Shown one piece after another: positions 8,360-57,177 of a DNA stretch of 64,000 bases. Made by a program: the position numbers and the translations under genes. The notes beneath the pieces are model-generated. The model was not told where the DNA came from, ran no database searches, and saw nothing but the letters and a program-made list of their open reading frames with translations. Numbering within the stretch: position 1 is the stretch's first letter; each line of letters starts with the position of its first letter. Origin of the DNA: Arthrobacter sp. AQ5-05 (GTDB lineage: Bacteria; Actinomycetota; Actinomycetes; Actinomycetales; Micrococcaceae); the NCBI RefSeq assembly GCF_003287975.1, contig NZ_QMKQ01000003.1, forward strand, positions 62,001 through 126,000, in the 5' to 3' direction.

Positions 8360-10063
8360 CTAGCGGCGGCGGCGCCGCTTGGTGCCGAACATGCCGCGAA
8401 ACAGCTCTCTGCCGATCATGTTTGCGGCCTGCAAGGCCATGTCAAGCACGGGATTGTCGGGTTTCGGCGCGGGAACCGGGGTGCCTGGACCGCGCTTGGG
8501 CGGATTTTTTGTTGCCACTGGTGGGTCGGGCATGGCGTAATCCGTGGCACCGGGTTCCGGTGCGGAACGCGGGATCGAGGAGGGGCGGCCCAGGATCGAT
8601 TCCTCGATTTCTCGGGCCGCGGCGTCGATGTCCGCCTGGCTTTGCCCCGGCCCCGGAACCCGCGCGGCGACCGATCCGCCCGTGGGGACCCGGGCAGCAG
8701 CCGGCGTCCGGGCACCCGCGGTGAGTTTCTCATACGCGGATTCGCGGTCCACGGCGGTGCCGTAGACCTGCATCAGGGCGGAGGTGCCAATGATCCCGGA
8801 AACGACCTCGGCGGAGGAAGGGCCCATGGTTGATTCCGGGCTCCACATCCGGGTCCAGGCCACAGGGGTCGGGGCGCCCTTCTCGTTCATCACGGTGACC
8901 ACCGCTTCACCGGTACCGGCCTGCGTCAGCGCCGCGTCCAGGTCGTAGTCGCTGGTGGGGAACGTGGAGATGGTCGCCTTCAGCGCCTTGGCGTCATCCG
9001 GGGTGAAGGCGCGCAGCGCGTGTTGGACGCGGTTGGCGAGCTGCCCGAGCACGTCCGCGGGGACGTCCTTGGGTGTCTGGGTCACGAAGAACACCCCGAC
9101 GCCCTTGGAGCGGATCAGCCGGACCGTGGCGGTGATCGAGGTCAGGAACGCCTTGGAAGCCCCGTTGAAGAGCAGGTGGGCCTCGTCGAGGAAGAACACC
9201 AGCTTCGGCTTTTCCGGGTTTCCGACCTCGGGCAGCTCCGAGAAGAGGTCGGCCAGCAGCCAGATCATGAAGGTGGAGAAGAGCACCGGCTTTTCCATCA
9301 GCGTGGGCAGTTCCAGGACACTGATGACCCCGCGGCCATCAGGTGCCTGCCGCAGCAACTCGGCGGTGTCGAACTCCGGTTCGCCGAAGAAGGACTCCAT
9401 GCCCTGGGCCTGCAGGGTGACCAGCTCGCGCAGGATCACCCCGGCGGTGGCCTTGGAGACCCCGCCAAGTCCCTCCAGTTCGGTCTTGCCCTCGTCGCTG
9501 GTCAAATGAGTGATGACCGCGCGGAGATCCTTCAGGTCGTGGAGCTCGAGGTCCTTGGTGTCCGCGTAGTGGAAGATCAGCTGCAGGCAGGATTCCTGGG
9601 TCTCGTTCAAGTCCATGATCCGCGAGAGCAGCAGCGGGCCGAAGGAGGAGATCGTGGCCCGGATCGGGATCCCCTGCCCGTCCCCGCCCAAGGAGTAGTA
9701 CTCCACGGGGAAGGACTTGGCTTCCCACGCCATGCCGACCGAGGCGGTTCGGGCGGCGAGTTTCTCGGTGGGTGTCCCGGGAGTGGACAACCCGGTGAGG
9801 TCCCCCTTGATGTCCGCCAGGAACACCGGGACCCCGTGGGAGGAGAGCTGCTCGGCCATCAATTGCAGGGTGATGGTCTTGCCCGTGCCGGTCGCGCCGG
9901 CCACCAGGCCGTGCCGGTTCATCATGCGCAGCGGCAAGCGGACCTGCGCCTCGGGGAAGAGCTGGTCATCGACCAGTGCAGCCCCCAGGATCACGGCCGG
10001 GCCCTCGAAGGCGTAACCGGCGGTTATGGTTTCCACGTGCTGGGATGTCGTCATCTTGGCCAT
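8360..10063 (-). CDS. HerA-like P-loop ATPase, DUF853 family
   Basis: A 567-residue ATPase of the HerA/FtsK superfamily, DUF853 (YjgR) branch. The Walker A motif is GATGTGKT at about residues 56-63 and the Walker B is KLVFFLDEAHLLF near 285; an Arg/Gln sensor segment (VFFVTQTPKDVPADVLGQL) follows at about 330. The C terminus is Pro/Ala-rich and ends in a run of Arg/Lys (KRRRRR) that could contact nucleic acid or lipid. HerA relatives are DNA-pumping hexamers, but the job of DUF853 proteins is not established. ATG 10063 is chosen over 10069 because TAGGCT at 10075-10070 is a plausible -10 box and no Shine-Dalgarno is present; this is a weak call. Confidence 0.85.
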   Translation of the reverse strand: MAKMTTSQHVETITAGYAFEGPAVILGAALVDDQLFPEAQVRLPLRMMNRHGLVAGATGTGKTITLQLMAEQLSSHGVPVFLADIKGDLTGLSTPGTPTEKLAARTASVGMAWEAKSFPVEYYSLGGDGQGIPIRATISSFGPLLLSRIMDLNETQESCLQLIFHYADTKDLELHDLKDLRAVITHLTSDEGKTELEGLGGVSKATAGVILRELVTLQAQGMESFFGEPEFDTAELLRQAPDGRGVISVLELPTLMEKPVLFSTFMIWLLADLFSELPEVGNPEKPKLVFFLDEAHLLFNGASKAFLTSITATVRLIRSKGVGVFFVTQTPKDVPADVLGQLANRVQHALRAFTPDDAKALKATISTFPTSDYDLDAALTQAGTGEAVVTVMNEKGAPTPVAWTRMWSPESTMGPSSAEVVSGIIGTSALMQVYGTAVDRESAYEKLTAGARTPAAARVPTGGSVAARVPGPGQSQADIDAAAREIEESILGRPSSIPRSAPEPGATDYAMPDPPVATKNPPKRGPGTPVPAPKPDNPVLDMALQAANMIGRELFRGMFGTKRRRRR

Positions 10064-16213: not shown

Positions 16214-17920
<1,707 letters not shown>

Positions 17921-47872: not shown

Positions 47873-47922
47873 ACAGGTGGGCCCGGGAATGCAACAATCG
47901 TTGCAATCCAGGGCCCACCTGT
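47873..47922 (+). terminator. Terminator after the DEAD-box helicase
   Basis: ACAGGTGGGCCC (47873-47884) pairs with GGGCCCACCTGT (47911-47922), and an inner TGCAAC/GTTGCA stem adds to it. A short GTATTT follows. Confidence 0.8.
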
Positions 47923-48686: not shown

Positions 48687-48805
48687 TCTAGCTTTAACGC
48701 CGATGCCACAAGGGTCGAACCGTGGAGCGCCCTGGCCGGCAACGTAGCGAATGAAAGGTGGACTTGAGCAGCGAAGGTCAGGAAACTCTTGATTTTTATT
48801 TGCAG

Positions 48806-48842
48806 TATCACACTTACTGATCATGTGTGATATATTTTTATC
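48806..48842 (+). promoter_or_regulatory. Operator and leaderless promoter of the type I restriction operon
   Basis: TATCACAC (48806-48813) and GTGTGATA (48825-48832) are perfect 8-bp arms spaced by 11 bases. TATATT (48831-48836) is a good -10 box that overlaps the right arm and ends six bases before ATG 48843. No ribosome site exists. The layout suggests a repressor controlling a leaderless message. The region is strikingly AT-rich compared with its surroundings. Confidence 0.65.
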
Positions 48843-49466
48843 ATGAACAACCAGAAGGTCCAGCAGGTGCAGTTGGGAGAAGTCTGCGCAGTGCGATCGG
48901 GATTTACCAGTCGCACTCGTCTGGAAACGGCTGCACTTGACGGCACGCTGACTGTGCAGCAGGGCGACATCAACGCGGACGGGCAATACGCTAGCGAAAC
49001 TGCACTGCGCACGATGACCCCGGCCGCATCCAAGCAGCACTACGTGGATCAGGGTGAACTGGTATTTCGTTCCCGTGGCCCGTTTTGGGGTGCATGCGCA
49101 ATCACTGGCATCGACGAACCTGTGTTGGCTGTCGCGCCGCTGTTCATTCTCCATCCCGATCCCGACGTTTTGGATCATGGCTACCTGGCATGGTTCCTTG
49201 GACGCCCCTTGGCTCGCCACTATTTCGATAGTGAAGCGCAAGGCACCGGCGTGAAGATGGTGACAAAGCCTGCCCTCGAAGCCCTCCAAATAAGTCTTCC
49301 GTCCCTCGATATTCAGCATCGAATTGCTGCCGTCGCAGCCTTGTCCGCCGAGGAAACTCGCATACGCGATCGGGTCGCAAGTCTTCGACAGGCCGTTGTT
49401 GGGCACCACCTCGACCGGCTTGCCCTCCACTCAATATCAGCACTCGACTCCGAGGAGATCCGATGA
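48843..49466 (+). CDS. Half-size type I specificity subunit (single-TRD HsdS)
   Basis: A 207-residue protein with one HsdS-type target recognition domain: QLGEVCAVRSGFTSRTRLE at the start, QGDINADGQY, YVDQGELVFRSRGPFW, and ALEALQISLPSLDIQHRIAAVAAL, which is the join to the conserved coiled-coil helix. A normal HsdS has two TRDs and about 400 residues. A single-TRD protein could dimerise and recognise a palindromic site, or assist the methyltransferase separately. It overlaps hsdM by four bases. A second, full-length HsdS lies 2.5 kb downstream in the same operon. Confidence 0.82.
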   Translation: MNNQKVQQVQLGEVCAVRSGFTSRTRLETAALDGTLTVQQGDINADGQYASETALRTMTPAASKQHYVDQGELVFRSRGPFWGACAITGIDEPVLAVAPLFILHPDPDVLDHGYLAWFLGRPLARHYFDSEAQGTGVKMVTKPALEALQISLPSLDIQHRIAAVAALSAEETRIRDRVASLRQAVVGHHLDRLALHSISALDSEEIR

Positions 49467-50980
49467 ACAACAACGTCACGCAAGACCGCATCAACAGGGC
49501 AGCCTGGGCGGCCTGCGATACCTTCCGCGGGGTCGTCGATGCAACCCAGTACAAGGACTACATCCTGGTGATGTTATTCCTGAAGTACATCTCGGACATC
49601 TGGAACGACCACAAGGAATCGTACGAGCAGGAGTACGAAGGCGATGAGCGCAAGATCGCGACCAAGCTAGGCCGGGAGCGCTTCCCGCTCCCGGAAGGTG
49701 CGAGCTTCTATACCTTGTACGAGCAGCGCAATGCTGAGGATATCGGTGACCAGATCAACCGGGCGCTCGAATCGATTGAAGACGCCAACCGCGCCAAGCT
49801 CGACGGGGTCTTCCGCAACATCGACTTCAATTCGGAAGCAAACCTGGGCCAGACCAAGGAGCGCAACCGGCGCCTCAAGCACCTTCTCGTGGATTTCAAC
49901 AAGCCGGAATTGGATCTGCGCCCTTCGCGGGTCAGCGACGACATCATTGGCGAAACCTATATCTACCTGATCTCGCGATTCGCGTCCGACGCCGGCAAGA
50001 AAGCCGGGGAGTTCTATACCCCGCGTTCGGTCTCCGAGCTGTTGGCGAAGCTCGCTAAGCCGGAGCCCGGCGACACGATTTTTGACCCGGCTTGCGGATC
50101 CGGGTCCCTGCTGATCCAGGCCGCGGCCGAGGTCGGCACCAACAACTATGCGCTGTATGGTCAGGAAGTCAACGGTGCCACGTGGGCCCTGGCTCGCATG
50201 AACATGTTCATGCATGCCAACGATTCAGCGCGCATCGAATGGGGCAACACCCTCACGGCACCGACACTGCTCGAGAACGACCGTCTGCGGCAGTACGACG
50301 TCGTGGTTGCCAACCCACCGTTTTCGCTGGATAAATGGGGTGCCGAGGACGCCGAAGCTGATGAGCACAAGCGTTTCTGGCGCGGCGTTCCGCCGAAGAG
50401 TAAGGGCGACTATGCGTTTATCACCCACATGATCGAGGTTGCCAAGCGGCAGTCCGGGCGCGTTGCCGTGATCGTGCCGCACGGTGTGCTGTTTCGTGGT
50501 GCTTCCGAAGGACGTATCCGCAAGGCGCTGATCGAGGAGAACCTTCTCGATGCCGTAATCGGCCTGCCGGCAAACCTGTTCACCACCACGAGCATTCCCG
50601 TCGCAATTCTCATCTTTGACCGATCGCGTGAGGCCGGCGGAGCCAACTCCGGACGAACCGATGTCCTCTTCCTCGATGCCAGCAGTGAGTTCACTGCGGT
50701 GAAATCGCAGAACCTGCTGGAAGAATCCCACATCGCCAAGATCCTTGGCGTCTACAACGGGCGTTCAGAGATCGAACGCTACTCGCATTTGGCGAGCCAC
50801 GAAGAAATAGTTGGTAATGACTACAACCTGAACATCCCGAGGTACGTGGACACGTTCGAACCCGAGGAAGAAGTCGATGTCGCCGCTGTCCAGCGCGAGA
50901 TCAACAAGCTTGAGACCGAACTTGTGACCGTGCGAGCACGCATGGCAGGTTATCTGAAGGAGCTGGGCCTCGATGACTGA
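49463..50980 (+). CDS. hsdM: Type I restriction-modification methyltransferase subunit HsdM
   Basis: A 505-residue N6-adenine methyltransferase. The N-terminal helical domain (residues 1-160) has VDATQYKDYILVMLFLKYIS, here noted as the HsdM_N hallmark, and the catalytic domain has FDPACGSGSLLIQAA (AdoMet motif I, about residue 210) and VVANPPFSLDKWG (motif IV, about 280). It methylates adenine in the site chosen by HsdS. It overlaps RhuM by eight bases. Confidence 0.95.
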   Translation: MNNNVTQDRINRAAWAACDTFRGVVDATQYKDYILVMLFLKYISDIWNDHKESYEQEYEGDERKIATKLGRERFPLPEGASFYTLYEQRNAEDIGDQINRALESIEDANRAKLDGVFRNIDFNSEANLGQTKERNRRLKHLLVDFNKPELDLRPSRVSDDIIGETYIYLISRFASDAGKKAGEFYTPRSVSELLAKLAKPEPGDTIFDPACGSGSLLIQAAAEVGTNNYALYGQEVNGATWALARMNMFMHANDSARIEWGNTLTAPTLLENDRLRQYDVVVANPPFSLDKWGAEDAEADEHKRFWRGVPPKSKGDYAFITHMIEVAKRQSGRVAVIVPHGVLFRGASEGRIRKALIEENLLDAVIGLPANLFTTTSIPVAILIFDRSREAGGANSGRTDVLFLDASSEFTAVKSQNLLEESHIAKILGVYNGRSEIERYSHLASHEEIVGNDYNLNIPRYVDTFEPEEEVDVAAVQREINKLETELVTVRARMAGYLKELGLDD

Positions 50981-51983
50981 TTCGATCGGGGAAGTAATCC
51001 TCTATACGACTGATGACGGTCTGGCACATGTGCAGCTGCATGCCATAGGGGGCACTGCTTGGCTTGCCCAGCGAGAGATCGCGGAACTGTTCCAGGTTTC
51101 CCCGCAGGCCATCACCCAGCATATTGCGGCTGTCTACTCCGAGGGAGAACTCTTGGAAGCGGCAACTTGTAACGATTACTTACAAGTTCGATCTGAGGGC
51201 GGGCGCGATGTGCGCCGTTCTGTGAAGCGCTATAGCCTCGACGTGATCTTGGCTGTGGGCTTTCGTGTGCGTTCGCCACGCGGCACCCAGTTTCGCCGGT
51301 GGGCGACGACGGTACTTGCGGAGTACCTGGTCAAGGGCTTTGCTATGGATGATGCCAAGCTCAAGGGTGCCGAACAATGGAACTATTTTGATGAGTGGCT
51401 CGAGCGCATCCGGGACATTCGGGCCTCGGAGAAGCGCTTCTACCAAAAGGTACGCGATCTCTACATGACGGCGGTCGACTACGATCCCACAACGGACGAG
51501 GCCAAGTTGTTCTTCGCCAAGGTGCAGAACAAGATGCTCTGGGCCGTGACCGGAAAAACTGCCGCCGAACTTGTCAAGGATCGTAGCGACGCGGATGCAC
51601 CCAACATGGGACTCACTAATTGGGAGGGATCCATTGTGCGCAAGGGCGATGTTGCGACGGGCAAGAACTACCTGTCGCAGGGCGAAGTGGATGAGCTCAA
51701 CCGCGTTGTCACCATGTATCTTGACTACGCCGAGGACCAAGCCAAACGACGTCAGACCGTGACGATGGAGCAGTGGAGCGAAAAACTCGATGCGTTCTTG
51801 GAATTCAATGGACGTGAACTCCTCACGAACGCTGGAAGCGTCAGCGCTGCCGTCGCAAAGAAACTAGCTGCCGAGCGCTATGACGAGTTCGACGCCAAAC
51901 GTAAGGCAACCGCTGCCATCGCGGCGGATGAAGCGGACATTGCGGAGCTCGAGCGACTGGTGTCGCCACGAAAGGACGATTGA
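50973..51983 (+). CDS. RhuM family protein
   Basis: A 336-residue RhuM protein. The N-terminal 100 residues hold a helix-turn-helix like region, AWLAQREIAELFQVSPQAIT, followed by DVRRSVKRYSLDVILAVGFR, a typical KilA/Bro-like DNA-binding fold signature of this family. The middle contains FYQKVRDLYMTAVDYDP and GKTAAELVKDRSDA, and the C terminus is a long helix. RhuM genes often lie within type I restriction operons, but their role is unknown. It is placed between hsdM and hsdS, overlapping the former and one base from the latter. Confidence 0.88.
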   Translation: MTDSIGEVILYTTDDGLAHVQLHAIGGTAWLAQREIAELFQVSPQAITQHIAAVYSEGELLEAATCNDYLQVRSEGGRDVRRSVKRYSLDVILAVGFRVRSPRGTQFRRWATTVLAEYLVKGFAMDDAKLKGAEQWNYFDEWLERIRDIRASEKRFYQKVRDLYMTAVDYDPTTDEAKLFFAKVQNKMLWAVTGKTAAELVKDRSDADAPNMGLTNWEGSIVRKGDVATGKNYLSQGEVDELNRVVTMYLDYAEDQAKRRQTVTMEQWSEKLDAFLEFNGRELLTNAGSVSAAVAKKLAAERYDEFDAKRKATAAIAADEADIAELERLVSPRKDD

Positions 51984-51984
51984 C

Positions 51985-53196
51985 ATGAAGAGTTTTCCCG
52001 TGAATTGGTCAGTCCACGAGCTTGCCGAGCTCGTGACCATAAAATCTGGCAGCACGCCATCCAAAGCACGCCCTGACTTCTGGGGCGGAGACACACCCTG
52101 GATTACCGCCCGGGATATGAAGACGCCGCATATTTCCAGCACGACTGCATCCCTGACATCAATCGGAGCGGAGAAGGCTCGTGTCATGCCTGCGGGGACA
52201 GTGTTTGTACTTACGCGAGGGATGACTCTATTTAGAGATTTGCCTGTCGTTCGCAATACGAAACCAGCTGCCTTCAATCAAGACGTGAAAGCACTAATTA
52301 GCAACCCGAATTTAGATGCTAATTTCCTTGCTTGTACCCTTATAGCAAGGAAATCTGAGCTTTTGCAAACTGTGACCCAGGCTGGCCACGGTACGGGAAG
52401 ACTTGATACAGAGAAGCTGGAAACATTTCCGCTTCCGTTGCCACCGCTCAATGAACAGCGAAAAATCGCAGCTGTCATTGCTACTTGGGACGAAGCAATT
52501 GAGCAGACAAATGCGTTAAAGGACGCCCTGTTGCGCCAGCGCGATTGGTTACGAAATACAGCGCTAACTGGAAGAAAACAGGAATCTGCATGGAAGCACG
52601 TTCCCCTGAGTGAAGTGATGACCGAACACAAGTTAAGAAGTAGCGGTACAGAGGAAGTTTTCTCAGTGTCGGTTCATAGGGGGCTTATCAATCAGGTTGA
52701 GCATCTAGGTAGATCCTTTGCCGCAGCAAAGACGTCTCATTACAACCTCGTCCAGCCAGGAGATGTTGTATATACCAAGAGTCCGACAGGCGGTTTTCCG
52801 TTCGGAATTATTAAGCAAAGCACAATTTCACATGACGTTATTGTTTCGCCGCTTTATGGCGTCTACGCCCCGGCTACCGAAGCGATTGGGGCGATTTTGA
52901 ATGCTGTTTTCGAATCGCCAAGGCTGGCACGGAACTACTTGGCTCCGCTCGTTCAGAAGGGAGCAAAGAATACTATATCGATCACTAATGGCCGTTTTCT
53001 TGAAGGATTGGTGAAGCTGCCGACGGACCCGGAAATGCAAACGCGACTTGCAGAAACCTTCAAGGTATCATTCAAGGAAATCGGTATGCTCGATGTGCAG
53101 ATTGAGCTCCTCCGGACTCAGAAAAGTGCGATCATGCAGAAGCTTCTTACTGGCGACATCCGAGTCGCCGTCGGCGAGGAGCCCAATGATGGCTGA
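51985..53196 (+). CDS. hsdS: Type I restriction-modification specificity subunit HsdS
   Basis: A 403-residue subunit with two target recognition domains. TRD1 spans about residues 1-155 and ends in LPPLNEQRKIAAVIATWDEA; the central helix follows (residues 160-195); TRD2 spans about 200-370 and ends in a second conserved helix, RTQKSAIMQKLLTGDIRV. The pair sets a two-part DNA target. The gene is clearly lower in GC than the rest of the window, especially 52150-53050, as expected for exchanged TRDs. AAAGGA precedes the ATG and its end overlaps hsdR. Confidence 0.95.
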   Translation: MKSFPVNWSVHELAELVTIKSGSTPSKARPDFWGGDTPWITARDMKTPHISSTTASLTSIGAEKARVMPAGTVFVLTRGMTLFRDLPVVRNTKPAAFNQDVKALISNPNLDANFLACTLIARKSELLQTVTQAGHGTGRLDTEKLETFPLPLPPLNEQRKIAAVIATWDEAIEQTNALKDALLRQRDWLRNTALTGRKQESAWKHVPLSEVMTEHKLRSSGTEEVFSVSVHRGLINQVEHLGRSFAAAKTSHYNLVQPGDVVYTKSPTGGFPFGIIKQSTISHDVIVSPLYGVYAPATEAIGAILNAVFESPRLARNYLAPLVQKGAKNTISITNGRFLEGLVKLPTDPEMQTRLAETFKVSFKEIGMLDVQIELLRTQKSAIMQKLLTGDIRVAVGEEPNDG

Positions 53197-56100
53197 GCAG
53201 GCATACGATCCGAGCGAAATCTTCCAATCCCAGATGCCTGCCCTTCAGGTATTCACGGGACTGGGGTATATTGCGCTCTCACCAACCGAAGCGCTTGCCT
53301 TGCGAGGTGGCCGCCGGCGCAATCCATTACTTGAAAGCGTGCTTGCCGAACAACTTGTTCGGCTCAACAAAATCACCTTCCGTGGCAGCGAATACCCACT
53401 TGACCCGGCAGATGCGCACGAAGCAATCCGCAAGCTCTTTCCCGAGCCCGAACAGCAGAAGGGCTTGAAAGCTAGCAACCAAGAGGTCTATGACAGTCTG
53501 GTGCTCGGCGCAACCATCGCAAAAACGATTGACGGTGACACCAAGAGCCACCAAGTGAAGTACATCGACTGGGAGATCCCGTCGAATAACGTCTTCCACG
53601 TCACCACCGAATACGTGGTTGAACGTACTGGCAGTATGAAAACCCGCCGACTGGACGTCGTTGCCTTTGTCAACGGCATCCCGTTTGTTGCCGTTGAATG
53701 CAAGCGGCCGTCCGAGGAAATCAAGAAGGCCGACCACCAGCTGATCAGGTACCAGAAGCGCGAGAACATTCCGGAGTTTTTCCATTTCGCCCAGCTCCTG
53801 ATTGCCACCAACCGACGCGAGGCAACTTATGCGACGGTCGGAACTCCCTCCAAGTTCTGGAGCCCGTGGCGCGAGGAGGACGATCATGAAAAGATCGTTG
53901 CAGTAGTCGCCAACACCCCGCTGGGGCGCGGCACTGTCGAGACGCTTTTTCGTGGCACGGAAGAAGCCGAAGCGGCAACGGCCTATTTTGACGCCCAACA
54001 AGCGGGAGGCGCCCGGGCTGTCAGCGAGCAAGACAGCTTGCTCCATTCCCTGTGCCGACCCGAGCGTTTGCTCGAACTCATCCGGACCTTCACGGTGTAT
54101 GACAACGGCACACGGAAAATCGCGCGGCACCAGCAGTACTTCGCGGTAAAGCGTGCCATTGAACGTGTCACATCAGGCGTCGAAGGCGAGCACCGGCCCG
54201 GGGGCGTTGTGTGGCACACCCAAGGCTCCGGCAAATCACTCACCATGGTGATGTTCGCCAAGGCCCTCGAATTCGAGCCCGGCATACGCAACCCACGGAT
54301 CATCCTGGTGACCGATCGGGATGATCTTGATCTGCAGATCCGAGACACCTTTCGGGCCTGCCAGTTGGACCCGGTTCGCGCTCGAACCGGAAAGCACCTG
54401 GCAGAGCTCATCCACGCACGGGCCCCATTGGTCACCACCATTGTCAACAAGTTCGAAAACGCCTCTAAGCTGCTGTCGCAAAGCGGGGCGAGCAATGGCG
54501 CCTCCAACATCGACAAGGACCCCAACCTGTTCGTGTTGGTCGACGAGAGCCACCGAAGCCACTCAACCCATCTGGGCCAATTCGGTGCGCTGTCCAAACG
54601 GATGCACCAGGTGCTGCCGATGGCCAGCTACATCGGTTTCACCGGTACGCCGCTGCTGAAAAAGGAGAAGAACACTTTCCGGACCTTTGGTGGACCCATC
54701 CATACCTACACCATCGCGGATGCCGTGCGGGATGAAGCCGTGGTGCCGCTGCTCTATGAAGGTCGCATGGTCGAGCAGCAAATATCGGAAAACATCATTG
54801 ACCGGTGGTTTGAGAAGATCTGCCAGGGGCTCACCGCTGAACAGCAAGCCGATCTGAAGCGCAAATTCTCGCGTGCCGACGTGCTCGCCGGTGCCGGGCA
54901 GGTCATCCGGGCCAAGGCCTTCGACATTTCCGAGCATTACCGCCAGTATTGGCAAGGCACAGGATTTAAGGCCCAGCTGGTTGCTTCCAACAAAGCTGCA
55001 GCCATTCGTTTCAAACAGGTACTGGACGAGATTGGCCATGTCACGAGCGAGGTCATGATTTCTGCGCCGGGCGAGAGCGAAGATGAGACCGCTGACTCCG
55101 TGGACCGTGAATCGCTCGACGTGGTTCAGAAGTTCTGGGACGCCGCCATGGAACGCTACGGCGGGGTCGCTGCCTACAACAGGGATGTCGTCAAGGCATT
55201 CAAGTCCAGTGGTGGTCCGGAAATCCTGATTGTTGTTTCCAAGCTGCTGACGGGATTCGATGCACCCCGGAACACCGTGCTGTATCTGTGCCGCTCCCTG
55301 CGTGAGCACACATTGCTGCAGGCGATAGCCCGGGTGAACCGACTTTTTGACGCCGAGGACGGCGAGGATGCAGTGGTTCGTTCCAAGGAATTCGGTTACA
55401 TTATCGACTACGAGGGACTACTGGGTGAGCTCGACGCCGCACTGACCACGTATTCGTCCCTTGAAGGCTTTGAGCTTGAAGAGTTGCTGGATGCCGTCAT
55501 CGACGTCCGTGAGCAGATCCGTTTGCTCCCGGAGCGCTGGAATGCGGTCTGGTCGCTGTTCCAAGGTATCCGCCATGATGACATGGAGGCACTCGAGCAG
55601 GTCCTGGCCGACAAGGCCCTCCGCGACGAATTCTATGACTGCCTGTTGGACTTCACGCGTACGTTGCACATTGCGCTCTCCAGCGACAAGGTTGAGGAAG
55701 TGATTCCAGCCGATCGCCTGGAACGCTACAAGGCCGATTGGAATCGGTTCGTGAACCTGCGTCGATCTGTCCAATGGCGCTATCTTGAAACCGTTGACCT
55801 GAGGGATTACGAACCCAAGATCAAAAGACTTCTGGACGACCATTTGCAGGCTATGCCCGCTGAGGTCTTGATACCCGAGCTGAATCTCAATGATCCTGCC
55901 TCACTACAGGCAGTCGTGGACGAGACGGGTGCGGGAGCTGCGGCGAAGGCGGATCGAATTGCCGCTGCGACCAGGAAACGCATTACCGAGCGCATGAGTG
56001 AGGATCCCGCGCTATATGCGCGTTTTGCCGCGCTGCTCCAAGAAGCTATCAATGAGTATCGCGCCCGGAGGCTCTCCGAGATTGAGTACCTCAATAGCAT

Positions 56101-56470
56101 TCTGTCCCTGACCGAGCGCGTGGCCAGCGGCGACCGAGGCCGGGCGCTGCCCGACGCGGTAGCGCATGACGACGACGCGGCCTCGTTCTTCGAGGCAATT
56201 GCGGATCGTTTCATGGACGAGAAAGGCCAGGGCGCGGACTCGGGGGAGAACCAAGCGGCGGCCGTTGCCGTCGGCCTTGTGGATATCGTGCGTAGCCACA
56301 TGATCGTTGGCTTTTGGCAAAACGAACCAGCACGGATGGGGCTGCTCAACGCCATCGATGACTACCTCTGGGATGTCGTTCCTACGATGAATGGTGCCAG
56401 TCTCTCTGCCGAGGACGAGGAAGCAATCCGTGAAAGTGTCGTCCGAATCGCCAAGGCACGGTTTCCATGA
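53186..56470 (+). CDS. hsdR: Type I restriction endonuclease subunit HsdR
   Basis: A 1094-residue motor and nuclease. The PD-(D/E)xK nuclease core is in the first 200 residues: RLDVVAFVNG followed by FVAVECKRP. The translocase has Walker A HTQGSGKSL near residue 348, the DESH box LFVLVDESHRSH near 450 and YIGFTGTPLL near 485; LTGFDAPRN is the motif VI region. It cuts DNA after ATP-driven translocation from unmodified sites. ATG 53186 is followed by a second ATG at 53189 with slightly better spacing to GAGGAG. It overlaps hsdS by 11 bases. Confidence 0.95.
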   Translation: MMAEQAYDPSEIFQSQMPALQVFTGLGYIALSPTEALALRGGRRRNPLLESVLAEQLVRLNKITFRGSEYPLDPADAHEAIRKLFPEPEQQKGLKASNQEVYDSLVLGATIAKTIDGDTKSHQVKYIDWEIPSNNVFHVTTEYVVERTGSMKTRRLDVVAFVNGIPFVAVECKRPSEEIKKADHQLIRYQKRENIPEFFHFAQLLIATNRREATYATVGTPSKFWSPWREEDDHEKIVAVVANTPLGRGTVETLFRGTEEAEAATAYFDAQQAGGARAVSEQDSLLHSLCRPERLLELIRTFTVYDNGTRKIARHQQYFAVKRAIERVTSGVEGEHRPGGVVWHTQGSGKSLTMVMFAKALEFEPGIRNPRIILVTDRDDLDLQIRDTFRACQLDPVRARTGKHLAELIHARAPLVTTIVNKFENASKLLSQSGASNGASNIDKDPNLFVLVDESHRSHSTHLGQFGALSKRMHQVLPMASYIGFTGTPLLKKEKNTFRTFGGPIHTYTIADAVRDEAVVPLLYEGRMVEQQISENIIDRWFEKICQGLTAEQQADLKRKFSRADVLAGAGQVIRAKAFDISEHYRQYWQGTGFKAQLVASNKAAAIRFKQVLDEIGHVTSEVMISAPGESEDETADSVDRESLDVVQKFWDAAMERYGGVAAYNRDVVKAFKSSGGPEILIVVSKLLTGFDAPRNTVLYLCRSLREHTLLQAIARVNRLFDAEDGEDAVVRSKEFGYIIDYEGLLGELDAALTTYSSLEGFELEELLDAVIDVREQIRLLPERWNAVWSLFQGIRHDDMEALEQVLADKALRDEFYDCLLDFTRTLHIALSSDKVEEVIPADRLERYKADWNRFVNLRRSVQWRYLETVDLRDYEPKIKRLLDDHLQAMPAEVLIPELNLNDPASLQAVVDETGAGAAAKADRIAAATRKRITERMSEDPALYARFAALLQEAINEYRARRLSEIEYLNSILSLTERVASGDRGRALPDAVAHDDDAASFFEAIADRFMDEKGQGADSGENQAAAVAVGLVDIVRSHMIVGFWQNEPARMGLLNAIDDYLWDVVPTMNGASLSAEDEEAIRESVVRIAKARFP

Positions 56471-57177
56471 GCCATGTTGTTGAGTATGGGTCCAAAAGCA
56501 TTGGCTTTGTCCTGGAGCGGCGGGAACGAACGACCCTGGAAATCACTGTCAGTCCTGACGGAACCGTCGGAGTGATCGCCCCTGTGGACTCAACCGACGC
56601 CGAAATCAATTCACGCGTGCTGAAACGGGCCAGGTGGATTCTCAAGCAACAGAGTTTCTTTGCCCAGTTTCTGCCGCGCACACCACCTCGGGTCTGGGCA
56701 CCGGGGGAAACCCATCTTTATCTCGGGAGGCAGTATCGACTGCGCATCGGAGAAGCCGAAGGCCCTGCCAGGGTGCGACTGATTCGCGGGTTCATTCTTG
56801 TTGACGGAATCGACTTCTCCGATCGGACCTCCATCGAAGCATTGGTAACGACGTGGTACCGCGAGCATGCAGCGGCCCAGTTCAAAAACAGGATTGAAGT
56901 TTGCCGGGCGAAGTTTCAGGGACCCGAGTTTTTTGCCCCGGCATCAGTGCAAATCCGGCGCATGAATTCACGGTGGGGCTCGATGTCGCCAGCGGGGATG
57001 CTGAGTCTGAACCCGGAGCTGGTGAAGGCCCCCGTGGAGTGCATCGACTACGTCATCACGCATGAACTCTGCCACCTCCGCGTTCCGCACCATGGACCGG
57101 AATTCATCGAACTTCTCTGCACTGTCATGCCCGATTGGGAATCGCGGAAGCTGCGGATGGAACGCATGCTGTCGTGA
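56467..57177 (+). CDS. YgjP-like zinc metallopeptidase (M48/DUF45)
   Basis: A 236-residue protein of the YgjP (DUF45) group. The zinc motif is HELCHLRVPHHGPEF, giving HExxH and a downstream His, preceded by the helix signature RRMNSRWGSMSP. It is cytosolic without membrane helices. Members are often encoded at the end of type I restriction operons and may process or degrade a component, though this is not shown. It overlaps hsdR by four bases, so it belongs to the operon. Confidence 0.9.
   Translation: MSHVVEYGSKSIGFVLERRERTTLEITVSPDGTVGVIAPVDSTDAEINSRVLKRARWILKQQSFFAQFLPRTPPRVWAPGETHLYLGRQYRLRIGEAEGPARVRLIRGFILVDGIDFSDRTSIEALVTTWYREHAAAQFKNRIEVCRAKFQGPEFFAPASVQIRRMNSRWGSMSPAGMLSLNPELVKAPVECIDYVITHELCHLRVPHHGPEFIELLCTVMPDWESRKLRMERMLS

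Follow-up and report, generated by a model that had tools for sequence, protein, structure and literature searches.

A conserved single-TRD HsdS-like protein at the head of a type I restriction operon in Arthrobacter sp. AQ5-05 and of related operons: a candidate autoregulator with palindromes in its own promoter

Results

We analyzed a window of 64,000 nucleotides (nt) from Arthrobacter sp. AQ5-05; positions are counted within it. Six genes follow one another on its plus strand. The first encodes a single-TRD, HsdS-like protein, here called half-S (48843 to 49466; 207 amino acids; one Methylase_S domain at E = 4e-6). Next come the genes for HsdM, an N6-adenine methyltransferase (49463 to 50980; N6_Mtase, E = 6e-101), a RhuM-family protein in the slot between hsdM and hsdS (50973 to 51983; Virulence_RhuM, E = 1e-109; PADLOC candidate PDC-S05), the full-length HsdS (51985 to 53196; 403 amino acids), HsdR, the restriction/translocase subunit (53186 to 56470), and a YgjP/SprT-like metallopeptidase (56467 to 57177; E = 2e-51). 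In the list of open reading frames (ORFs), the frames of the full HsdS and HsdR open earlier, at 51880 and 53048, and we chose the ATGs at 51985 and 53186 instead. With these starts, neighboring genes overlap by 4, 8, 11, and 4 nt, and rhuM and hsdS are 1 nt apart. An earlier note on this DNA had described six overlapping or nearly touching genes, and all six are present.

HsdR, HsdM, and a full-length HsdS are encoded together, as in type I restriction-modification (RM) systems. Pfam scores only the first TRD of the full HsdS, and its best PADLOC model spans residues 3 to 395. As to membership of the type IC family, HsdM scored 240 bits with the EcoR124II M subunit versus 76 with that of EcoKI; higher scores were obtained with chain 3lkd (307) and with 7vru/PacII (293 and 286). 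The G+C content of the operon is 0.53 to 0.60, versus about 0.67 in its flanks. When 396 genomes of the same order, including the window's own, were searched for half-S, 10 matched at E = 1e-5. The operon looks acquired, because the nine matches outside the window were few, weak (best, 1e-9), and in ORFs of 396 to 756 amino acids.

The AlphaFold2 model of half-S has a mean pLDDT of 95.7 and ends in a 52-residue C-terminal helix (residues 155 to 206). A single TRD with a long helix is the architecture of NgoAV-type homodimers; the fold is that of a TRD protein, neither helix-turn-helix nor RptR-like. Methylase_S is the only Pfam match, and the best-matching PADLOC model is 208 long. Among solved structures, those nearest in fold are single-TRD Esub1 and S subunits. 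Esub1 (PDB 8VSQ; 8VSR with Prx), a single-TRD S-like protein for which no paper was found in the literature searched, is the closest, with a TM score of 0.72 to 0.73 by query length and 16% identity. The earlier note had stated that half-S proteins can dimerize, and this has been published for type IC systems (PMC3874165, partial text).

A short-peptide search of the genome collection with half-S gave no match, and HsdM was then used as the query, with a cutoff of 530 bits that was fixed after the search results had been inspected. In 129 of 147 loci, half-S immediately precedes hsdM; the count is 114 of 132 when the window and loci L012 to L025, which were chosen for having half-S, are left out. 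The other 18 same-clade HsdM loci, a few of them at contig edges, do not have half-S, and neither do L186, L187, L203, and L204. Half-S mostly overlaps or touches hsdM, the commonest offsets being −3 and 0, and 113 of the 115 chosen half-S ORFs encode 183 to 223 amino acids. The skeleton half-S, hsdM, (cargo), full hsdS, (cargo), hsdR, ygjP was found in 14/14 plasmid loci read and also in loci whose titles name about 10 phyla. YgjP is present in 59/59 testable operons and RhuM in 18 of 74 complete ones (L068 and L054 were excluded from this count and from the trees but kept in the motif counts). RhuM and the peptidase, both placed inside the operon by the earlier note, are therefore optional cargo and core last gene, respectively, and its proposed check on gene order came out in favor of a five-gene core and against the exact six-gene order with rhuM. 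Other cargo genes encode SMODS/SAVED proteins of CBASS type, Shedu, Fic, kinases, Schlafen, Piwi, and KwaB-like proteins.

In 149 pairs of loci whose half-S proteins are at least 60% identical, median identities were 79% for half-S, 93% for HsdM, and 35% for the full HsdS. Judged by these identities, half-S is conserved while the full HsdS diverges, unlike what a diversifying second specificity would be expected to do. In the EQ motif of S proteins, E precedes Q in 3/76 half-S motifs versus 101/118 motifs of full S proteins, so that at the sequence level the motif is mostly lost in half-S.

We found a bipartite palindrome, GTA-N7/8-TAC (mostly with CWGTA arms), often present twice, in the promoters before half-S. 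The region from −120 to +25 of the half-S start was scanned in 91 half-S clusters, formed at 70% identity. GTA-N7-TAC occurred in 24 clusters and GTA-N8-TAC in 14; 200 shuffles gave means of 1.8 and 1.6, respectively, with a maximum of 6 for each. Each form occurred once in 90 far-upstream control regions and in none of 91 stretches inside hsdM, and other GTA-TAC spacings from 3 to 16 occurred in 0 to 4 clusters each. Among the clusters that had not been used to form the idea, 30/84 carried the palindrome, versus 2/83 far upstream and 0/84 inside hsdM. When 896 triplet-spacer combinations were ranked on those 84 clusters, GTA-N7 came first (z = 14.5; largest value in 40 shuffles, 4.9), and ranks 2 to 8 were other registers of the same palindrome. 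G+C-rich triplets had high z values far upstream because the means were taken from promoter shuffles.

Two sites, 51 to 77 bp apart, were present in 21 of the 37 positive clusters, and 15 of these 21 pairs flank a TTGAC/TTGAT box. The remaining 54 of the 91 clusters have no perfect GTA-N7/8-TAC. Up to 7 of these belong to a second class with a GCA core (see below); among the others, some showed imperfect forms by eye, and the rest showed nothing clear. Less specific searches gave broader signals. Palindromes with any 5-base arms were in excess at spacers from 4 to 12, not confined to N7/8 (26 to 37 of 91 clusters versus 18 to 20 in shuffles). Inverted repeats with arms of at least 7 were found in 51/115 promoters versus 69/575 shuffles, 28/114 far-upstream regions, and 11/115 hsdM stretches. 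This general excess is moderate, and the signal is clear only once core and spacing are resolved.

Unlike most positive clusters, the window carries only one such site, a predicted operator CAGTA-N7-TACTG at 48803 to 48819 (plus strand). CWGTA-N7-TACWG has this single match in the 64 kb, with 0.01 expected; the window itself is among the clusters that yielded the pattern. The site overlies the −35 element of a predicted sigma-70 promoter at 48807 to 48836 (plus strand; −35 ATCACA, 18-nt spacer, −10 TATATT with TG), which has 9/12 consensus matches, with 0.1 expected in shuffles. The predicted operator lies upstream of 48843, just outside the interval that the earlier note covered. A longer inverted repeat, TATCACAC-N11-GTGTGATA (48806 to 48832, plus strand), overlaps it. 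This repeat was first taken as the operator and was dropped in favor of CAGTA-N7-TACTG; arms of 8 or more occurred in 21/575 shuffles, and the repeat may be due to chance.

One clade of half-S proteins (SH-aLRT, 99) has a different palindrome. GCAYYA-N7-TRRTGC, with at most one mismatch, was found in 7 of its 9 members, in 0/82 other clusters, and in 0/90 far-upstream regions; since the pattern was derived by eye from the clade's own members and L205, its test is these controls and not its count. No member of this clade has a perfect GTA site, but in one, L061, an imperfect site also scores as positive with the GTA matrix. On the half-S tree the spacer changes between 7 and 8 three times (shuffled mean, 10.4; smallest, 6); on the HsdM tree, from which one more row was dropped for a short HsdM, it changes five times. 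The operator class changes once on each tree. The two trees are told apart by the spacer counts and by visual inspection of three loci. In A1, inspected by eye, no insertion accounts for a spacer of 8 versus 7.

To obtain fresh half-S loci, we searched 396 genomes of the phylum; apart from the window's own there were 10 matches, of which few were true half-S. We had predicted GTA-N7/8-TAC in at least 25% of fresh loci, and it was found in 1 of 9, several of the nine being weak matches or away from the operon start. L206 had a GTA site and L205 a GCA site; L189, L190, L191, L197, L198, L202, and L207 had neither. Because this prediction missed, we slightly lowered our confidence in the reading of half-S as an autoregulator.

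Discussion

Autogenous control by the first gene of an RM operon has precedents. The enteropathogenic Escherichia coli (EPEC) island rptR-hsdM-hsdS-darTG-hsdR-M48 begins with a demonstrated autorepressor that acts on short palindromes (PMC12255303, partial text). It shares with the operons described here a head gene for an autorepressor (a putative one here), the promoter palindromes, the gene skeleton, the defense cargo between hsdS and hsdR, and a metallopeptidase as the last gene (M48 in EPEC). RptR is a 79-amino-acid helical repressor that reads TAGCTA, whereas half-S is a 207-amino-acid TRD protein and its predicted site a bipartite N7/N8 palindrome. C proteins of type II RM systems and a C-family gene on the Mycoplasma gallisepticum hsd locus likewise exert head-gene control, but C proteins are helix-turn-helix proteins (PMC12707154, partial text). 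Half-S shares with C proteins and RptR its place as operon head gene with palindromes in its own promoter. In BlihIA, a full and a truncated HsdS occur in one locus, as here, and the authors speculate on regulation via a hybrid dimer; the available part of that report mentions no promoter sites (PMC12429846), and our comparison with BlihIA is by description.

The form of the palindromes points to half-S itself. In type IC systems, single-TRD S proteins (EcoR124I delta50, the EcoDXXI truncation, and NgoAV) dimerize and read A-N7-T or A-N8-T palindromes; GAA-N7-TTC and GCA-N8-TGC are among the published homodimer sites, and their inner edges are A and T (PMC3874165). Both predicted operator classes, GTA and GCA, share this form, which is the predicted half-S target and is enriched at the promoter. 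The type IC half-S proteins replace the full S and direct methylation (PMC3874165), whereas here half-S is encoded beside a full HsdS and is predicted to read a site in the promoter.

We consider it somewhat probable that half-S, alone or with HsdM, binds the promoter palindromes and autoregulates the operon. Half-S would homodimerize via its long C-terminal helix, and the two identical TRDs of the dimer would read the mirror-image halves of a bipartite site, CAGTA-N7-TACTG in the window. By itself or in complex with HsdM, it would cover the promoter's −35 element; in many relatives, a second site about 50 to 80 bp downstream would be bound too. Half-S may need HsdM, because the S and M subunits of EcoKI alone do not bind DNA (PMC3874165). 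Binding would repress transcription of half-S-hsdM-cargo-hsdS-cargo-hsdR-ygjP, or gate it via adenine methylation, and the feedback loop would set the dose of the nuclease and the embedded defense cargo.

The strongest alternative, to which we give about half as much credence, is that half-S serves the methyltransferase structurally or in assembly, joining HsdM and the full HsdS for correct methylation, the palindromes being another regulator's site or a by-product. Its main evidence comes from Staphylococcus xylosus hsdRSMS (PMC10030836, partial text), which has the same order, hsdS_short, hsdM, hsdS_long. There, hsdS_short (191 amino acids, single TRD) is conserved while hsdS_long varies, as with half-S and the full HsdS here. 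In E. coli, with expression driven by a foreign promoter, type I methylation was complete only when hsdS_short was present; in constructs that lacked it, methylation was partial, altered, or absent, and hsdM transcripts were at 0.36- to 1.23-fold. A pure repressor role would fail to explain these data, and the findings in this distant system favor a role of half-S in methylation, either instead of regulation or in addition to it; that half-S mostly overlaps or touches hsdM fits such a role as well. The relationship is weak, hsdS_short scoring 37 bits with the half-S model; the S. xylosus HsdM (466 bits) is outside our clade, hsdR is upstream, and no YgjP/SprT is among the annotated genes of the hsd stretch. 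Control by hsdS_short of its own promoter is not reported in the available text (PMC10030836), and the palindrome near it is GTA-N12-TAC, not N7/8. Against an assembly role are the same-clade HsdM loci, active or not, that do without half-S, the half-S homodimer geometry of the palindromes, the separate palindrome of one half-S clade, and the loss of most of the full-S EQ motif.

The earlier note was right that a single HsdM and a single HsdR are matched with two specificity proteins, a full HsdS and a genuine one with a single TRD; their core order proved conserved. It proposed that the cell could have two methylation specificities or that half-S may tune assembly, and the S. xylosus data lend the latter outside support (PMC10030836). 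On the former view, a half-S homodimer with HsdM would methylate the palindrome genome-wide, and the promoter copies would be incidental. The truncated type IC S subunits named above do provide such a specificity (PMC3874165), and the palindromes have an adenine at the inner edge. We nevertheless think a second, diversifying specificity unlikely as the main reading: half-S is conserved where the full S diversifies, its EQ motif is mostly lost, and sites of the expected type are concentrated, often paired, at its own promoter. The 4.6-Mb Arthrobacter genome also has only 7 CWGTA-N7-TACWG sites, versus 14 for the reversed pattern, although the count of sites would rise if the protein reads fewer bases.

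BRO-type DNA-binding parts may be present in RhuM relatives, and Bro-N matched 3/103 cargo ORFs, so a cargo regulator such as RhuM, or a host regulator, could read the palindromes. This is quite improbable: the motif occurs in 24/65 clusters without RhuM (13/26 with it), it is nearly absent from HsdM-clade loci without half-S (1/21), and the hosts are very diverse. The idea that half-S represents an HsdS in decay after truncation, which only its size favors, is hardly credible given its place before hsdM, narrow length range, confident predicted fold, and sequence conservation; the conserved gene order answers the pseudogene test that the earlier note had set.

If half-S is the autoregulator, a TRD of a restriction enzyme would have been turned into a transcription regulator. 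More tentatively, and with real doubt, the operator could be methylated by HsdM, forming an epigenetic self-switch that reads the HsdM level or the unmethylated state and releases the RM-plus-cargo operon; this switch would be spread over about 10 phyla and control an interchangeable defense cassette. The literature searched, which lacked preprints and most subscription papers, gave no report of a half-S with this regulatory role. The results give a precise candidate operator and a candidate regulator for a type I family that is widespread and carries embedded defense genes. They suggest how such islands are kept silent once transferred, why operons retain a single-TRD S protein beside a full HsdS, and that TRD proteins can act as transcription factors.

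Conservation and exchangeable cargo of the operon

The six genes of the operon, encoding half-S (a 207-aa single-TRD HsdS-like protein), HsdM, RhuM, full HsdS, HsdR, and YgjP, were confirmed in the order given in an earlier note, at 48843-57177 on the + strand. Their G+C content is 0.53 to 0.60 (about 0.67 in the surroundings), and among 396 genomes of the order, its own included, a close half-S was found only in the window's own genome; weak matches in nine further genomes lie within ORFs of 396 to 756 aa. The operon looks horizontally acquired. An inverted repeat of 23 nt (47873-47922; 91% complementary, arms 4 nt apart) lies downstream of an ORF that by eye is helicase-like.

Half-S matched 41 plasmid records by tblastn, of which 14, picked for variety, were read first. 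The order half-S, hsdM, full hsdS, hsdR is present in all 14 loci, with 0 to 1 genes in the hsdM-hsdS interval, 0 to 2 in the hsdS-hsdR interval, and SprT/YgjP as the last gene wherever the stretch reaches that far; L021 additionally has a small hypothetical gene between half-S and hsdM. An HsdM alignment scan gave the best 80 genome loci and the best 80 viral-contig loci, and a cutoff of 530 bits left 147 loci among the matches listed, counting the window and the 14 plasmids. Half-S is directly upstream of hsdM in 129 of these 147 listed loci (114 of 132 when the 15 chosen for having half-S are removed), most commonly with -3 or 0 nt between its stop and the hsdM start; a few of the other 18 are at contig edges. 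Where the HsdM of a viral locus scored under 460 bits (28 loci), the arrangement was not found, except that in L174 a 149-aa S fragment precedes hsdM. Record titles, many of them of MAGs and partly subject to our interpretation, suggest that half-S loci occur in Pseudomonadota, Bacteroidota/Rhodothermota, Verrucomicrobia, Nitrospirota, Latescibacterota, Bacillota, Desulfobacterota, Fibrobacterota, Planctomycetota, and Bdellovibrionota.

Half-S is not universal in the HsdM clade, because two E. coli loci (L186 and L187), one of Vibrio (L203), and one of Ruegeria (L204) have hsdM (838 to 883 bits), hsdS, hsdR, and M48/SprT without it. At L067, a further clade locus without half-S, a protein that by eye is CI-like (9002-9883) ends 117 bp ahead of hsdM and is perhaps a replacement regulator.

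YgjP follows HsdR in 59 of the 59 clusters (half-S grouped at 70% identity) where this could be judged; under a stricter distance rule the count was 37 of 56, since gene starts are blurred in stop-to-stop ORFs. RhuM is present in 18 of 74 complete operons, and gaps of at least 250 nt occur between hsdM and hsdS in 44 of the 74 and between hsdS and hsdR in 60. Among the 103 of 171 cargo ORFs scanned for domains, DUF3800 was found in 11, RhuM in 9 (some RhuM ORFs were not in the pick), YhcG nuclease, SMODS, and Schlafen AlbA in 6 each, Fic in 5, kinases and DUF6119 in 4 each, KwaB in 3, and Abi, Shedu, SAVED, and Piwi in 2 each. The PADLOC families matched most by cargo, PDC-S05 and PDC-S23, are both matched by the window's RhuM too. 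Across L012 to L157, the two exchangeable slots (hsdM-hsdS and hsdS-hsdR) contain many defense genes, encoding Shedu, SMODS/SAVED, Fic, kinases, Schlafen, Abi, Piwi, and KwaB-like proteins, and DUF3800 and DUF6119 are recurrent among the cargo. Because RhuM is infrequent, the cargo is diverse, and YgjP is constant, YgjP counts as part of the system and RhuM as one exchangeable passenger among many. The earlier note was right that RhuM and a peptidase sit inside the operon, but only the peptidase is core, and the gene order whose conservation it proposed to check is kept for half-S, hsdM, hsdS, hsdR, and ygjP but not for rhuM.

Half-S differs from full HsdS

Sequence comparison indicates that half-S evolves under a regime different from that of full HsdS. 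In 149 locus pairs whose half-S proteins are 60% or more identical (pairs that share members and so are not independent), median identities were 79% for half-S, 93% for HsdM, and 35% for full HsdS, and full HsdS was less conserved than half-S in 147. Within the motif P-x-L-x-x-Q, E precedes Q in 101 of 118 full-HsdS motifs versus 3 of 76 half-S motifs; the motif is absent from 15 of 91 half-S proteins. The AlphaFold2 model of half-S (39 sequences, mean pLDDT 95.7) has one TRD plus a helix at 155-206; among solved structures, it is most similar in fold to Esub1 (single-TRD, 8VSR/8VSQ) and to S subunits.

A palindrome in half-S promoters

A predicted operator, CAGTA-TCACACT-TACTG (48803-48819), spans the -35 box of a promoter predicted at 48807-48836, from which transcription would start at about the ATG. 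It is the sole CWGTA-N7-TACWG in the 64 kb (0.01 expected), where the N8 version was not found; genome-wide, the N7 pattern occurs 7 times versus 14 for the reversed control pattern. An inverted repeat at 48806-48832, TATCACAC-N11-GTGTGATA, overlaps this site and the -10.

When the 14 plasmid loci were read, CTGTA-N7/8-TACAG was spotted upstream in most of L012 to L019, often twice. Between -120 and +25 of the half-S start, GTA-N7-TAC occurs in 24 and GTA-N8-TAC in 14 of 91 clusters, versus 1.8 and 1.6 in shuffles (largest, 6), 1 and 1 of 90 far upstream, and 0 and 0 of 91 inside hsdM; other spacings of GTA gave 0 to 4 of 91. With N7/8, GTA was far ahead among the 64 triplets (37/91 versus 3.2; z, 20), the second being CAA (z, 4.8). 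For any 5-base arms, the excess was broad across spacers 4 to 12. Leaving out the seven clusters holding the window or L012 to L019 gave 30 of 84 positive (far upstream, 2/83; hsdM, 0/84). A matrix trained on one half of the clusters, in six random half-splits with the threshold set so that 2% of shuffles exceed it, found 17 to 23 of 46 held-out promoters, 0 to 1 of 45 to 46 far-upstream controls, and 0 of 46 hsdM controls. The half-site is mostly CWGTA. Two sites, 51 to 77 bp apart, are present in 21 of the 37 positive clusters, and in 15 of these clusters, by our count, the two sites flank a TTGAC or TTGAT box.

No perfect GTA site was found in 54 of the 91 clusters; a second class, GCAYYA-N7-TRRTGC (GCA), covers up to 7 of these and an imperfect CAGWAA..TTACWG, seen by eye, several more, with no clear form apparent in the remainder. 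A prediction made beforehand, that the motif would occur in 25% or more of fresh half-S loci, was missed: nine such loci, several of them weak model matches or not first in the operon, gave one GTA site (L206), one GCA site (L205), and neither in seven. One of these seven, an E. coli chromosomal locus (L207, 7846-14475), has half-S, hsdM, hsdS, hsdR, and then an incomplete YgjP-like gene, and its upstream stretch has no GTA-N7/8-TAC. A GTA-N12-TAC palindrome precedes S. xylosus hsdS_short, directly upstream of position 17260 on the minus strand of L200; this spacing was found in 0 of the 91 clusters.

Which protein reads the palindrome

A single-TRD S homodimer would be expected to target a bipartite palindrome. 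The half-S homodimer targets described in PMC3874165 are all type IC (GAA-N7-TTC for EcoR124I delta50, GCA-N8-TGC for NgoAV, and others), with methylated A residues 7 or 8 nt apart; in the operators here, the inner edges are A and T, with 7 or 8 nt separating them. HsdM scores 240 bits to EcoR124II M versus 76 to EcoKI M; other chains score higher.

Nine half-S proteins (L020, L022, L023, L061, L072, L077, L083, L090, and L094) form a clade (SH-aLRT, 99) in which no perfect GTA site was found. The GCA pattern, with at most one mismatch, is present in 7 of the 9 and in none of the 82 other clusters or 90 far-upstream regions. Because it was derived by eye from clade members and L205, the 7/9 is not independent, and its absence elsewhere serves as the control. 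L022, L023, and L083 have two GCA sites each, and L061 passes the GTA matrix too, via an imperfect site. The half-S of L205, which has the exact GCA pattern, is nearest to those of L061 (71%) and L022 (65%). The spacer switches between 7 and 8 three times on the half-S tree (shuffled labels: mean, 10.4; smallest, 6) and five times on the HsdM tree; operator class changes once on each. By eye, three loci have a half-S of a clade other than their HsdM implies: L064 has a GTA-N7-TAC site although its HsdM is near the GCA group, L024 has no GCA site although its HsdM is in that group, and L053 has GATGTA-N7-TACATC although its HsdM is among N8 loci. Of 21 HsdM-clade loci that lack half-S, 1 has the motif. 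RhuM was rejected as the reader because the motif occurs in 24 of 65 clusters that lack RhuM, versus 13 of 26 that have it.

Our best reading is that half-S, as a dimer with or without HsdM, would bind operators overlapping and adjacent to the promoter and thereby autoregulate the operon. The corresponding first gene of the EPEC island (RptR-HsdM-HsdS-DarTG-HsdR-M48) encodes RptR, a demonstrated autorepressor (PMC12255303). Evidence against a purely repressive half-S comes from the distantly related S. xylosus hsdS_short (37 bits; HsdM of that locus, 466 bits), which was required for methylation to be complete under a foreign promoter and was toxic when expressed from a plasmid (PMC10030836). 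A dual role of half-S, as methyltransferase partner and operator reader, would fit both cases. There are precedents for type I systems, for half-S homodimers, and for first-gene autorepressors individually; an S-derived protein reading its own operon's operator was not found in our literature search. If the dual role is true, the operator would be a methylation site.
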